DNA of 64,000 bases from Flavobacterium cerinum (GTDB lineage Bacteria > Bacteroidota > Bacteroidia > Flavobacteriales > Flavobacteriaceae). Positions within the stretch are counted from its first letter, which is position 1. Every line of letters starts with the position of its first letter. Below, piece by piece: positions 22,793 to 30,543 of this stretch. Location: contig NZ_SBII01000004.1 of assembly GCF_004028155.1 (NCBI RefSeq), forward strand, positions 186,001-250,000. Reading direction: 5' to 3'. A model generated the notes under the pieces. The model was given only the letters and a program-made list of their open reading frames with translations, had not been told where the DNA came from and made no database searches. A program made the translations under genes and the position numbers.

Positions 22793-23579
22793 CTAATCGA
22801 TCCACAAACTTCCGATAGAATACGTTTTTGCCTGTCCGCTAATTATTACCCGCTCGCCTTTGTTTTCGCAGAACAGATTTCCTACCCGTTCTGAAACCTG
22901 GAGTGCATAAAGTTCATTTTTATTAAGCCTTGCTGCCCAAAATGGAATTAATGAGCAATGAGCAGAACCTGTTACCGGATCTTCTAAGATGGAAGCCTGC
23001 GGAGTAAAATACCTGGAAACAAAATCGCAGTTATCGCCTGGCGCAGTTACAATTATACCGCCAGGGTCAAGGTTTATCTGGTCAAATAATAATCGGTTTA
23101 TTTGAATATTTTTAATTTCGGTTTCATTATCATAGACTAACACATAATCTCTTGATTTTAAAACTTCTCTAGGTTTAATACAGTGAATTTTCAATGTTTT
23201 CCGGTAAAGTATCCAATAATGGCATTCTCGAAGGAAAGTCCATTTTGTAAAACCCGTTGTCCATAAAAACAGTTAGATCTCCGCTTAGGGTTTCAAAAAC
23301 AATCGTATCACTTTTATAATTAAGAATTGTTTTTAGGCAATGTGCTGTTGCAAGAGTAGCATGGCCACACAAATCCATTTCAATTTCAGGCGTAAACCAT
23401 CGTAGGTGTATCCTGTCTCCATGGTCTACAAAAAATGCTGTTTCGGCGACAGCATTTTCTTTTGCTATTTTCAATAAAATATCATCTGCCAGCCATTTGT
23501 TCAATGGTACAACGCATGCAGGATTTCCTCCGAATGTTTTGTTTGTAAATGCGTCAATTTGATAAAGATCAAGTTTCAT
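22793..23579 (-). pseudogene. PhzF-family isomerase gene broken by a frameshift
   Basis: Two overlapping frames together make one PhzF protein of normal length (about 262 residues). The first (23579 to 23175) has the N-terminal MKLDLYQIDAFTNKTFGGNP, the catalytic-Glu region NAVAETAFF and the MDLCGHATLATAH motif; the second (23194 to 22793) has the C-terminal LEDPVTGSAHCSLIPFW motif. The junction lies near 23175-23194, where the reading frame changes by one base and the first frame ends NSLY. Either a recent pseudogene or a sequencing error; no slippery motif was seen. Confidence 0.85.
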
Positions 23580-26217: not shown

Positions 26218-26713
26218 TTGTCTTTTTGTTTCTTGTGTGAATTATATCTAATTCATCAGGATTTAAATTGTAGTGTTAATGATTTAAATCAACGGGGATT
26301 TTGTCCATTACCATTGATTCCTATTTTTCTAATTATCCTTCTGTTAAATTCTTCAAACAAAATTCCTGTAATTTATGTTCAGTCAATTTATCTATAAACC
26401 CAAATGTAATAAAATTCCCGTTATTTATGTTTAAGATAATATAGTTAAATTCTAGATGTTGGTGTTTTTTTTATATGGTTTTATGTGAGTAAAATGCAGC
26501 AATTCTACGTATTTCTCCACGCACTTTAAAACAGGTATTTCTACCTGTAACCATTCAGTTGTCATTCTTTAAATTTGGTTGTAACAATAAGGAATTGCCA
26601 TATGTTTTTTTCAGGACCTGGTCTTCAACGTAAAGTAGTGCTGTCTTACAGCCTATGATCTGAGAGCGATTCAGGATCCTTTACTATAAATAGATATCCT
26701 AAATCCAACTGAA
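26218..26713 (+). promoter_or_regulatory. Control region of the MNIO operon with a perfect dyad
   Basis: This 496-bp stretch has no supportable gene. It contains a perfect dyad ACAGGTA-TTTC-TACCTGT at 26531-26548 and a TAAATTTG (-7 type) box at 26570-26577, 22 bp downstream of the dyad, in the direction of the ferritin-like gene. A leader of about 130 bp would result. The dyad sits where a repressor or activator would act on the -33 region. The rest is A/T-rich without further structure. Confidence 0.5.
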
Positions 26714-28114
26714 ATGATACATCAAAAATTTTTTGGCGATCAGGCCGAAAAAGTCACACCTGAAAACCTTGGCGAGGCCTTACAGCAGGCCATTGAGATC
26801 GAGATCTCAACGATTCCTACCTACCTGTTTACCTACTATTCTATAGTAAGGTCACCATCACAGCAAAATATGATTAATTCATTGACCAATGCGCTGCTTA
26901 AAATTGACAAAGAACCGCGCTATACTTTTGATGAAGCTTCAGAAATTGCTTTAAATTTCTCTGCCGATATTATGGTATTCGCTAACAGGACAGGTGCACT
27001 TATCATGAGTGTAGCTATCGAAGAGATGCTGCACATGGCACTTTCTTCAAACCTGAAACAAGCCTTATCGGGGATGCCGATACTATATGGCAGATCTCCG
27101 GCCGTTTGGCCCGCCGATCTTCCGGGACACAAACCTGCACTTAAGATCAATACGGCTAAACTGTCGTTAAAGCAGTTAGAGACGTTTCTTAATATAGAGA
27201 AACCCATGAAGCCTAAAGTGACTAATTTAAAAGCACGCAGGGCTTTTATTCCGTATCCTACCATAGGGGATTTCTACCAAATGGTTATCGACTGCCTTGA
27301 TAAAAACCCGAATATACCGTACAATACCCATTCACCACAATTGGTTCCGGGTAAGGGTTATTATGCGCAAAACAATATCGATACCATATATTATGACAAA
27401 CAGCATAATCCTGTATTTACAAATCAGGATGATTCCGGTGATCTTATCTGTGTAGCCGATAAAAAATCGGCACTGGCTGCCATCAACTTAATTGTAGAGC
27501 AGGGGGAAGGCCAGCTGGTTAAAGATGCGCCTTATCTGGATAAAGACAATAACCTTGATTTTGCGGCCTTGCTTCAATACGACTTTACCCCAAAAGAAGG
27601 GGAGGAAGCTTCTCACTTCGAAAAGTTTGCTATGATCTACCAAACGTACTATGAAATGGGTAAAAAGTTTGAAGCTCTGGATATTAAAGACATTACTTTC
27701 GATAATCTTTTTATAACGGATATTGCAAGTAATCCGGCTACTGCCGATTATCCGGCTAATATTGCTCCTGTATCCGATCTTATCAATGGTGTTTACACTT
27801 ATATTTTTGTAATGATCGAAGAGTGTTACCGTAAATCGGGAAGTACACAATATGAAACTTTCATGTTCGGGATACATAAATCGATGATCTTTATATTGAA
27901 CTCGCTTTGTGGCGATATCATGAAACTGAAATACCATAAAGAAGGATATGGTGAGTGTTATGCTTCGCCAACTTTTGAGAACTATACGTTTAGTCCGTTG
28001 GCCAGGCCAAAAGCACAGTTGCAGGATTTATATAGTGCAGCGGTAAGTGTATATCCGGCTATTTCTTATCTTGGTAACAGGGTCGATGACCTGCCGGATG
28101 TAGATTTAAAATAG
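26714..28114 (+). CDS. Ferritin-like (PF12902-type) putative di-iron enzyme
   Basis: The 466-residue protein resembles the ferritin-like domain of VioB/RebD-related iminophenyl-pyruvate dimer synthases. Family features are LGEALQQAIEIEISTIPTYL at residues 17-36 (first helix Glu ligands) and VAIEEMLHMALSSNLKQALSG at about 101-121 (EExxH). A later helix has MIEECYRKSGS. The C-terminal third is of unknown fold. It is the first gene of an operon with a Cys-rich protein, a DUF692 oxygenase and a DUF2063 protein (gap 44 bp to the next). An oxidative step on the Cys-rich product is inferred from this context. Confidence 0.75.
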   Translation: MIHQKFFGDQAEKVTPENLGEALQQAIEIEISTIPTYLFTYYSIVRSPSQQNMINSLTNALLKIDKEPRYTFDEASEIALNFSADIMVFANRTGALIMSVAIEEMLHMALSSNLKQALSGMPILYGRSPAVWPADLPGHKPALKINTAKLSLKQLETFLNIEKPMKPKVTNLKARRAFIPYPTIGDFYQMVIDCLDKNPNIPYNTHSPQLVPGKGYYAQNNIDTIYYDKQHNPVFTNQDDSGDLICVADKKSALAAINLIVEQGEGQLVKDAPYLDKDNNLDFAALLQYDFTPKEGEEASHFEKFAMIYQTYYEMGKKFEALDIKDITFDNLFITDIASNPATADYPANIAPVSDLINGVYTYIFVMIEECYRKSGSTQYETFMFGIHKSMIFILNSLCGDIMKLKYHKEGYGECYASPTFENYTFSPLARPKAQLQDLYSAAVSVYPAISYLGNRVDDLPDVDLK

Positions 28115-28158
28115 ACCGATCATTAACAATTATTCGCAAACATTTATCTGAAAATCTT

Positions 28159-28746
28159 ATGGCTACAATAGAAAATAACAAGGAATTATCAATGTGTGGC
28201 GGCAGCGCACCTAAACCAGCTGCACCGGGAGCACCGGCAAGTATTACTCCTCCTGTAGAACTACATGTTTGTATGGGATTAAACGCCTGTAAAGGGCATG
28301 ACAGAACAGGAACCAACAATTGCGCAGGAACAGGCTATTGTGCTACAGCACAACAACACAGCTGCCAAACCCTAAACAATTGCCGTAATCAGGGCGGATG
28401 CGGCCTGTATGGCGACGCATTGCAGCAGGAAAACCCGGGAAATAACAATTGCGCATGGCAGGGAAGCTGTGCTGTACCAATACAAGCCGAACGTTTTAGT
28501 ACCTTAGGAACCAATAAGGGGAAAAGTACATGGAAACTGGCGCGTCAATTATTCGAAAAAAGAATGAATGAGGCAAACAGGACTGTCGGACCTTCACCTT
28601 ATGAGTGCGGACCGCCTCAAAACTGGCTGGTGTCGCTGTTAGGGTCTTATGATTCGTGCGGAAACAGTGGCAATAAAAGATGTTCGTTCGGTTTCAACAA
28701 CCCGGACGATAATGCTAAAAAGCTTTGCGAAGGTAAAGCCGAGTAA
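28159..28746 (+). CDS. Cysteine-rich protein with Cx5C repeats, candidate MNIO substrate
   Basis: 195 residues with 14 cysteines (13, 38, 44, 55, 61, 69, 75, 81, 98, 104, 150, 167, 175, 190). Residues 38-104 hold five Cx5C units (CMGLNAC, CAGTGYC, CQTLNNC, CRNQGGC, CAWQGSC), most preceded by N-N or N-A. The N-terminus has a Pro/Ala linker and no signal peptide. Lying 6 bp before the DUF692 gene, it has the position and the repeated Cys pattern expected of a ribosomally made peptide modified by MNIO enzymes. It is long for a RiPP precursor, so a metal-binding protein is an alternative. Confidence 0.7.
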   Translation: MATIENNKELSMCGGSAPKPAAPGAPASITPPVELHVCMGLNACKGHDRTGTNNCAGTGYCATAQQHSCQTLNNCRNQGGCGLYGDALQQENPGNNNCAWQGSCAVPIQAERFSTLGTNKGKSTWKLARQLFEKRMNEANRTVGPSPYECGPPQNWLVSLLGSYDSCGNSGNKRCSFGFNNPDDNAKKLCEGKAE

Positions 28747-28752
28747 ATTCAA

Positions 28753-29709
28753 TTGAATATGAGCGAAATTTTAAAACCGGCTTCAACATATAGTGATATC
28801 GTCAAAACGATATCTAATCCCGGACTTGGTTTGGGGTTAAGGAGTATGCACTTTGATTATATTCTTGAACATAATCCACCTGTAGACTGGTTCGAAATCA
28901 TTTCAGAAAACTTTATGGACTCCGGCGGAAGGCCGCGTCATATTTTAAGAAAATTAGCAGACAGATACCCCGTAGTAATGCATGGGGTATCTCTTTCTAT
29001 TGGCAGTACCGATCCTATCAATTGGGAATATCTAGCCAAATTGAAAGCATTAGCTGCCGAAATAAAACCATTATGGGTAAGTGACCACCTGTGCTGGACA
29101 GGCATTAATATGCTAAATACCCATGACCTGTTACCCGTTGTTTTAAACGAAGAATCACTCAAGCATATTATCGGGCGCATCAAACAGGTACAGGATTATT
29201 TAGAACGACCGCTTGTTATAGAAAATCCAAGCACCTACCTTACGTTTAAGCAGTCTTCTATAGCAGAATGGGATTTCCTTCGCTATATGGCCGAAGAGAC
29301 GGGATGCGGCTTACTGCTCGATGTAAACAATGTATATGTATCGGCTTTCAATAATGATTTCGATCCGGTACACTATATCAAACAGCTGCCACATGACAGG
29401 ATAGTCCAGATGCATATAGCCGGGCATCAGCATTGTGGAGATTATATTATAGATACGCACGATAGAAATGTTGTAGATGATGTCTGGAAGCTCTTCTCTC
29501 TTGCCTGGGAGTTAACAGGAGGTGTTGCAACTTTACTGGAATGGGATGGTAATATCCCTGATTTTAATACCTATCATGCCGAGCTTTTAAAAGCAAAACA
29601 GTTTATGAATGGTATGGAGCATGCAAGTACTACCCCAATACAGATAAAGAAGGAGAATTTCACAGTGTCGAACCCTGTTAGCTTTTTAGTTAATGATATT
29701 AAATTTTAA
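28753..29709 (+). CDS. DUF692 multinuclear non-heme iron oxygenase (MNIO)
   Basis: The 318-residue TIM-barrel protein matches DUF692/MbnB-like enzymes, which use two or three irons to rewrite cysteine or other residues in peptides. Candidate ligands follow the family order: DWFEIISENFM (Glu, near 44-48), VVMHGVSLSIG (His near 76), WVSDHLCW (Asp/His near 114), LVIENPSTY (Glu near 156), LLLDVNNVYVS (Asp/Asn near 193), VQMHIAGH (His), IDTHD and LLEWDGN. It is followed 15 bp later by the DUF2063 partner. The sequence shows the family clearly; the chemistry done here is unknown. Confidence 0.9.
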   Translation: MNMSEILKPASTYSDIVKTISNPGLGLGLRSMHFDYILEHNPPVDWFEIISENFMDSGGRPRHILRKLADRYPVVMHGVSLSIGSTDPINWEYLAKLKALAAEIKPLWVSDHLCWTGINMLNTHDLLPVVLNEESLKHIIGRIKQVQDYLERPLVIENPSTYLTFKQSSIAEWDFLRYMAEETGCGLLLDVNNVYVSAFNNDFDPVHYIKQLPHDRIVQMHIAGHQHCGDYIIDTHDRNVVDDVWKLFSLAWELTGGVATLLEWDGNIPDFNTYHAELLKAKQFMNGMEHASTTPIQIKKENFTVSNPVSFLVNDIKF

Positions 29710-29724
29710 CAACCTCTATACTAT

Positions 29725-30543
29725 ATGATCAATAAGGAGGTATTACCAATAGCAGAGATCCAAAACTGGATGCAGGCAATGCTTATACAGCATGTGCCAA
29801 TATCTCATTTAGATGTTACAACGGCCGATATGGTGAACGATTCAAAACGATTGAGTGCTGCTCAACACCTAACAATTTACAGGCAAAGTTATATCGCCAG
29901 GCTGCGTGCCTGCATGCAGAGTCAGTTTAAGTGTTTAGCGCATGCACTTGGTGAATTACTTTTCCAGGATTTTGCAGATGAGTATCTGGATAGCAATCCA
30001 TCTGCAAGCTATACATTAAATAACCTGGGAGAAAAATTTCCTTTATTTCTTGAAATGAACCGTCCTGACGCTGAAAGTGAAGAGAAGGAGGAATGGCCTG
30101 ATTTTATGATAGAACTGGCTGCATTTGAATATGCATTATCAGAAATATTCGACATGCAGGGAACAGATGATATCAATATTCCGGACAGCAATACTCCGGA
30201 TCATTTACTTATTACATCACCTACGCTTCATCTTTTTGAATATAAATTTCCTATTTGTAGTTATTACCTCGATTTCAACGCAAACCTTTCACCTAACTTA
30301 CCTTTTCCTCAGAAAAGCCATTGTGCCGTCTCGAGGCAAAATTATAAACTCGGACTATTCAACTTAGGTATAGATCAGTACTACTTTTTAAACTGTATCA
30401 AAGAAGGTGCTTCTATACAGGAAGCAAAGGATAAATTAATAGAATTCTATAATTTTGAAAGATCCAATTTTGAGAAGATATGGCCAATATGGCGTAGAAA
30501 CTTTATAGTGTCGGGTTTTTTAGTTTGTAAAAATGATGCCTAA
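29725..30543 (+). CDS. DUF2063-type MNIO partner protein
   Basis: 272 residues. The N-terminal domain (about 55-130) has the DUF2063/MbnC-like pattern AAQHLTIYRQSYIARLRACM, then FADEYLDSNPSASYTLNNLG and FPLFLEMN. Such proteins form heterodimers with DUF692 enzymes and help bind the substrate leader. The C-terminal half is less conserved. It completes a four-gene operon; nothing else co-directional follows. An inserted acidic stretch (ESEEKEEWPDF) is unusual. Confidence 0.8.
   Translation: MINKEVLPIAEIQNWMQAMLIQHVPISHLDVTTADMVNDSKRLSAAQHLTIYRQSYIARLRACMQSQFKCLAHALGELLFQDFADEYLDSNPSASYTLNNLGEKFPLFLEMNRPDAESEEKEEWPDFMIELAAFEYALSEIFDMQGTDDINIPDSNTPDHLLITSPTLHLFEYKFPICSYYLDFNANLSPNLPFPQKSHCAVSRQNYKLGLFNLGIDQYYFLNCIKEGASIQEAKDKLIEFYNFERSNFEKIWPIWRRNFIVSGFLVCKNDA

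Follow-up and report, generated by a model that had tools for sequence, protein, structure and literature searches.

MNIO enzymes acting with DUF2063 partners are described as converting cysteine to 5-thiooxazole, and more than 24,000 MNIO/DUF2063 loci are reported in a source whose characterised products are metal-binding peptides (PMC12668002). The closest described systems are the bufferins, which chelate copper and whose operon core comprises a precursor, an MNIO, a DUF2063 protein and DoxX, by the account given in PMC12452194; the same account pairs signal-bearing precursors with PME-type 1 partners and signal-less precursors with PME-type 2, and describes adjamnio-I proteins (122-293 amino acids, 8-21 Cys, no signal peptide) encoded upstream of an MNIO (PMC12452194). 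Here we analyze a four-gene operon in a 64,000-nucleotide stretch of the Flavobacterium cerinum genome (contig NZ_SBII01000004.1, positions 186,001 to 250,000; hereafter the window, to which coordinates refer), encoding a PF12902 ferritin-like protein, a cysteine-rich protein that is the putative MNIO substrate, an MNIO (DUF692) and a DUF2063 protein. The four genes form a unit, of which we are as good as certain. The best overall explanation, with a probability of roughly 0.5, is that a cytosolic cysteine protein modified by the MNIO/DUF2063 pair would work as one with a ferritin-like diiron protein.

The cassette resembles bufferin 2 (BufA2-BufB2-BufC2, a captophorin-type metallophore) in its BufB-type MNIO, its DUF2063 partner and a related cysteine core. 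It departs from it in a cysteine-rich protein of approximately 195 residues that lacks a hydrophobic N-terminus and has one more CX5C as well as a conserved C-terminal half; in a constant ferritin-like partner; and in a score far under the cut-off of the BufA2 precursor model NF050166 (14.3 against 60 bits for the window protein). A plain bufferin was rejected as a full description, given the missing signal peptide and the constant ferritin gene. In length, cysteine number, signal-less state and adjacency to the MNIO, the cysteine-rich proteins match the description of adjamnio-I, although one member has 22 Cys, exceeding the published range by one. Adjamnio-I, compared by its description, has PME-type 2 in its published major organization (PMC12452194), whereas the cassette combines a signal-less protein with DUF2063 (PME-type 1) in 47/47 cases, breaking the published correlation. 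The word "ferritin" is absent from the main text of that source (PMC12452194). Among the matches listed in the open-access literature, none links the MNIO and PF12902 families; both words occur in passages of PMC8224329 and PMC7907618, there as unrelated mentions. The original prediction of an undescribed system thus stands in part: the constant ferritin-like partner is unreported in the literature searched, but large signal-less putative MNIO substrates had already been published as adjamnio-I (PMC12452194).

The gaps between the four open reading frames are exactly 44, 6 and 15 bp, as the original prediction had given for a tight operon; the genes lie where it placed them, but its interval, starting at 26531, took in 183 bp of DNA upstream of the first frame (26714). 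The window's genome (31 contigs, 99.8% complete) contains a single MNIO match and a single PF12902 match, both in this cassette. A profile scan of 84,980 species genomes, using an alignment of seven cysteine-rich proteins as the query, returned 114 matching stretches; with the fusions described below, the spread is thin but wide. Eighty of these relatives were kept for analysis and the other 34 left out, with neighboring genes identified by profiles derived from the window's four proteins and gene starts chosen by script (doubtful in L083, L086, L049 and L050). Ferritin-like and MNIO genes adjoin the cysteine-rich gene in 80/80 loci, some cut by contig ends (L058 retains just the end of the ferritin-like gene), and DUF2063 is present in 78, the exceptions, L040 and L066, stopping at a contig end. 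By phylum the loci comprise 59 from Bacteroidota, 13 from Proteobacteria (4 Gamma-, 5 Beta- and 4 Alphaproteobacteria), 6 from Actinomycetota and 2 from Acidobacteriota. In all six actinomycetotal loci the order is precursor-MNIO-DUF2063-ferritin, so that the ferritin-like gene comes last instead of first, with the set intact. Between the four protein trees, pairwise distances correlate with r of 0.655-0.935, and no correlation as high arose in 500 label permutations (75/81 loci). The original prediction had left it to be seen whether these families co-occur outside this genome, which they do across four phyla, and its MNIO operon is upheld by PF05114, DUF2063 and the 80-locus linkage. Recurrence on this scale excludes chance adjacency of the four genes, as do the tree distances, the MNIO sample and the fusions.

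Because the 80 loci had been found via the cysteine-rich protein, 395 Bacteroidota genomes sampled by family served as a control. MNIO genes occupy 28 places in 27 of these genomes, 26 of them exceeding the cut-off. Nine of the 28 have this cysteine domain, and all nine also have a ferritin domain, encoded by a gene of its own in seven and within the same protein in two, whereas none of the other 19 (two of them below cut-off) has a ferritin-like match within ~1.5 kb. Among these 19 is L131, whose precursor matches the cysteine-protein profile as well (2.2e-6); as it has a signal-like N-terminus and no ferritin gene, it is counted as BufA2-type. PF12902 exceeds its cut-off at 15 places in 13 genomes, nine of them in this cassette; the other six have no MNIO, DUF2063 or cysteine-protein match within ~1.5 kb, and in G267 the MNIO and PF12902 genes share one contig, far apart. 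These controls indicate that the ferritin gene tracks this precursor type and not MNIOs at large. The MNIO genes L136-L139 of the same sample adjoin open reading frames with KCG-type repeats, like ordinary captophorin precursors.

The cysteine-rich protein (28159-28746, plus strand) comprises 195 residues and 14 Cys. Its CX5C repeats, as predicted, exceed chance, with five seen against a shuffle mean of 0.9 and 7/5000 shuffles reaching five. After removal of near-duplicates and doubtful starts, an alignment of 61 of the 81 family sequences has 35 invariant columns, eight of them Cys: C38, C44, C61, C69, C75, C81, C98 and C104 occur in 61/61, and C55, C167 and C175 in 57/61. The codons from C38 to C104 (28270-28470, plus strand) cover the BufA2-like core and the extra CX5C (C98, C104), as supported by hhalign and the fusion tails. 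The BufA2 model matches 55/61 members at E<=0.1 (best 2.4e-7), and hhalign relates the core to one BufA2-like protein, from L107, with a probability of 94.7 and to a three-row set with 84.3. A loose six-Cys spacing pattern occurs in 81/81 members, against 3/2000 shuffles of the window protein. Judged by sequence, the core is a diverged relative of bufferin 2, and the earlier term "bufferin-like" proved right both here and for the MNIO, which exceeds the BufB cut-off. In Bacteroidota, BufA2 matches were found in 3/198 genomes at E<=0.001 and in none over the cut-off.

Across the family, the cysteine-rich proteins measure 155-277 residues with 8-22 Cys (L083 and L086, with doubtful starts, left out). 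Their N-terminal hydropathy, which is not a signal-peptide predictor, has a median of 0.66 in 80/81 proteins, against 2.24-2.48 in three BufA2-type controls; values above 1.8 occur in two of the 80 (L083 and L049), both with doubtful-looking starts. Since the N-terminus is not hydrophobic by comparison with these controls, the protein is taken to be cytosolic, and since just eight of the 35 invariant columns are Cys, a partner protein is favored over a free peptide. The sole match to a solved structure (E=0.87) was taken as chance, and tblastn searches of plasmids returned no match at E<=1e-3. Four members from Kordia and Aquimarina (L035, L036, L037 and L038) carry long N-terminal extensions, with 20-22 Cys in total; that of L037 is an array of Ser-Gly-Cys repeats. 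The motif ACG-x-S-x-MSGGGSC(I/G) closes the proteins of L043-L052, L077, L081, L085 and L087, which come from Saprospiraceae-type bacteria and from Alpha- and Betaproteobacteria; the remaining members have longer tails.

The MNIO gene (28753-29709, plus strand) encodes 318 residues from a TTG start, with an ATG at 28759, and matches PF05114 at E=2.8e-106. It scores 354.4 bits against the BufB model NF050167 (cut-off 310), but stays below the methanobactin and chryseobasin cut-offs (MbnB equivalog, 49.1 vs 325 bits; ChrH, 44.6 vs 600). All 41 aligned members, from 81 sequences, match BufB at E<=1e-20 and retain H77, H124, E157, D190, H221, H225, H236, E263 and D265, which we take to be metal or catalytic residues. 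Directly following the invariant Asp265, 39/41 members have G/S/N/A and 2/41 have Asp, a further difference from bufferin 2, as Glu stands there in L107, L123 and L124, three MNIOs that do not belong to the cassette; two fused-type loci have Ala, the motif having been recovered in 6/12 loci of the wider MNIO comparison. Phe or Asp at the position after FonB Asp249, which we infer to correspond to Asp265, is described as a specificity mark (PMC12668002). The DUF2063 gene (29725-30543, plus strand; 272 residues, PME-type 1) matches PF09836 with 58.5 bits (cut-off 27.2) at E=8.1e-16, and all 47 members aligned from 79 match DUF2063 at E<=3e-6.

The ferritin-like gene (26714-28114, plus strand) encodes 466 residues and matches PF12902 with 125.8 bits (cut-off 22.3) at E=2.9e-36, as do 50/50 members aligned from 81 at E<=0.001. 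Invariant among these are E30, E103, E104-x2-H107, E162, E265 and E298-x2-H301. The AlphaFold2 (AF2) model has a predicted local distance difference test (pLDDT) score of 91.5, and the closest solved structure found, 3hl1 (Caulobacter CC_0557), shares its fold (Z 25.2 over 264 residues, root-mean-square deviation 2.6, 22% identity) and is also the sole sequence match in the PDB. The best ferritin, Dps and bacterioferritin chains reach Z 11.0-11.5, which is modest for helical bundles. By their placement on the predicted helices or at helix ends, E30, E104-x2-H107, E265 and E298-x2-H301 could serve as diiron ligands of the ferritin type. The protein shares a ferritin-like domain with the PF12902 imine-coupling enzymes VioB and RebD, and some loci lie beside an L-amino-acid oxidase gene, as VioB occurs with VioA. 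Unlike VioB, whose model (TIGR04492) spans 1003 positions and requires 1250 bits, it scores 17.4 bits (E=0.00076), and its partners are a cysteine-rich protein and an MNIO. A haem in the ferritin-like protein is possible, because VioB, according to a review of violacein, contains haem and acts as a catalase (PMC9705886). Outside the cassette, a single open reading frame in L097 (1387-3633) combines a PF12902 ferritin domain with a flavin adenine dinucleotide (FAD)-binding amine-oxidase domain recognized by eye, with no MNIO within ~1.5 kb.

The ferritin-like and cysteine-rich proteins also occur as natural fusions. Among 201 genomes from the order to which G419 belongs, which is not that of the window, 12 encode one open reading frame of 688-767 residues with the ferritin domain N-terminal and the cysteine domain C-terminal, followed in 12/12 by separate MNIO and DUF2063 genes (fused loci L118, L119 and L163-L178). 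By eye, the fusion tails keep H-x-C-x3-N-x-C-x3-GGCG and N-x-C-x5-C-AVPI/M, equivalent to C69-C104 of the window protein.

Our analysis suggests the following mechanism for this mobile four-gene unit. The DUF2063 protein would dock the cysteine-rich protein on the MNIO, which probably modifies it and would oxidize several of the eight invariant cysteines. Because other MNIO/DUF2063 pairs install 5-thiooxazoles (PMC12668002), that product is the expected one, and by this analogy we lean slightly towards a thiooxazole. Instead of being exported, the product would remain cytosolic, attached to the ferritin-like protein by binding or by fusion; that the two are parts of one mature complex is, from the sequences, an even bet. 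Together they would comprise a metalloprotein with a ferritin-type diiron site and, next to it, a metal or redox site provided by the modified cysteines, and in some lineages the complex may be fed by, or protect against, an L-amino-acid oxidase encoded next door. Tentatively, and with probability rather against it, the MNIO/DUF2063 pair might act as an enzyme maturase that installs heterocycles on the cysteine subunit of a ferritin-like diiron oxygenase or oxidase, giving a mixed diiron/thiooxazole-metal site for amino-acid-derived substrates. If so, MNIO enzymes make more than peptide metallophores. The cassette departs from these in its cytosolic product, constant ferritin-like partner, broken PME correlation and natural fusions, and as it is small enough to express whole, MNIO maturation of an enzyme subunit and PF12902 function are directly testable.

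Several observations weigh against this account. Modification of the cysteine-rich protein by the MNIO is a prediction, and the AF2 model of that protein, with a pLDDT of 60.9 (too low for a structure search), does not confirm a folded subunit. The diiron site may be incomplete in some members, because E298, invariant in the 50 split proteins, is by eye absent from its place in two fused proteins and in 3hl1. The cysteine-domain profile matches of the fusions are weak and partly compositional (E ~1e-5 to 1e-8; bias of 9 bits at a score of 25 and of 14 bits at a score of 21), so that the assignment leans also on motifs judged by eye, and the fusion is compatible with a tailoring enzyme working on its own tail. 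The tree permutations ignore shared species history and so do not separate co-function from shared descent. Finally, the oxidase component is not general, since the window's genome has no L-amino-acid oxidase homolog at E<=1e-20.

The alternative that survives best, possible though doubtful, is that the ferritin-like protein adds a second tailoring step, with its diiron or haem center oxidizing another residue of the cysteine-rich protein before or after the MNIO acts. Its constant co-occurrence with the cassette, its ferritin fold and its conserved carboxylate/His pattern fit this role, as does the weak match to the model of VioB, a PF12902-type enzyme whose substrates are reactive imines (PMC9705886). 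Enzymes fused to their own substrates are known from other peptide systems. Against this role, one enzyme molecule is tied to one copy of the substrate in the 12 fusion genomes, while the MNIO and DUF2063 stay separate. Nor was a protease or exporter evident by eye among the 25 largest neighbor clusters, and the S41 peptidase downstream in the window lies on the other strand, not adjoining the operon. The second oxidation by the PF12902 protein that the original prediction offered is a hypothesis; the fusions and the 35 invariant columns, eight of them Cys, fit one mature protein equally well or better.

An improbable alternative places the cassette in amino-acid oxidation, where an oxidase and a keto-acid decarboxylase would yield an imine, aldehyde or peroxide that the ferritin-like/cysteine protein pair processes, much as VioB handles the product of VioA. 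Within 6 kb, an L-amino-acid-oxidase-like gene occurs in 18/80 loci (15 close, 3 weak) and a thiamine diphosphate (ThDP) decarboxylase gene in 19/80. The best solved relatives of the oxidase are 8t8a ("Amine oxidoreductase", 3e-239) and 7x7i ("FAD dependent enzyme", 5.7e-151), followed by L-Lys and other L-amino-acid oxidases, and one ThDP enzyme most resembles keto-acid decarboxylases. PF12902 genes near lodA-like genes in fungi are mentioned in PMC4417212. The gene pair (L022, L053-L057, L059-L064, L067-L072 and L121) is mostly that of one Flavobacterium clade, with L022 besides, and stands upstream of the cassette in L121, from a genome of another family; yet 16/18 oxidase loci belong to that clade and close kin. 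Besides its absence from the window's genome, the oxidase is reduced to a 64-codon remnant in L120 (G399). A homolog is present in 9/16 cassette genomes against 1/20 controls, the controls being of one genus and the gene seen next to the cassette in 3/9. We treat the oxidase link as lineage-specific, reminiscent of VioA/VioB. L027 has a LamG/berberine-bridge-type oxidase in place of the L-amino-acid oxidase, with a ThDP enzyme. Decidedly improbable is a plain cytosolic buffer, with copper or a different metal bound by the modified protein, and with the ferritin-like protein serving the MNIO as an iron source or store, or by removing peroxide. It would suit the BufA2-like core, BufB-type MNIO and ferritin/Dps fold, and bufferins chelate copper (PMC12452194). 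Yet ordinary bufferin operons are described without a ferritin gene (PMC12452194), the 19 other MNIO places of the Bacteroidota sample have none within ~1.5 kb, and no genus-spanning metal-resistance gene was recognized among the 25 largest neighbor clusters, save one resembling NRAMP in eight loci, most of them from Mucilaginibacter.

This genome most likely acquired the four genes together, as one unit. Each of the four window proteins is closest to its counterparts in Mucilaginibacter, Taibaiella and similar loci, and L053, the one Flavobacterium locus compared, is distant. Within the window's genus, the 395-genome sample has four genomes with the cysteine-rich protein and at least 20 without, and none of 36 other genomes in a near-relative sample carries it. 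The cassette has a G+C content of 40.4% against 35.6% for the window, a level that 0.3% of 3.8-kb segments reach, counting that of the cassette itself; the Gly/Ala/Cys-rich protein contributes to this.

Upstream of the operon, matches to a flavobacterial promoter were loose only and not used, and sigma-70-like and terminator-like matches at the operon were not counted as evidence. The scanned neighbors in the window are ordinary, among them a MarR/GNAT protein, the S41 peptidase and an ABC transporter. Elsewhere, the NRAMP-like metal transporter gene, recognized by eye, lies downstream on the opposite strand in L010, L013, L014, L016, L017, L021, L032 and L033, and could be simple synteny. A THAP4/nitrobindin-like barrel protein is encoded near the cassette in L042 (3718-4596; Pfam 22.1 bits, under the cut-off of 25), L034 (8533-9519) and L076 (8372-9406). 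Within the window itself, a PhzF-type gene on the minus strand (22793-23579) appears to be broken into two frames that overlap, 23175-23579 and 22793-23194, the first of which matches PF02567 at 1.2e-30; this represents a pseudogene or a sequencing error.

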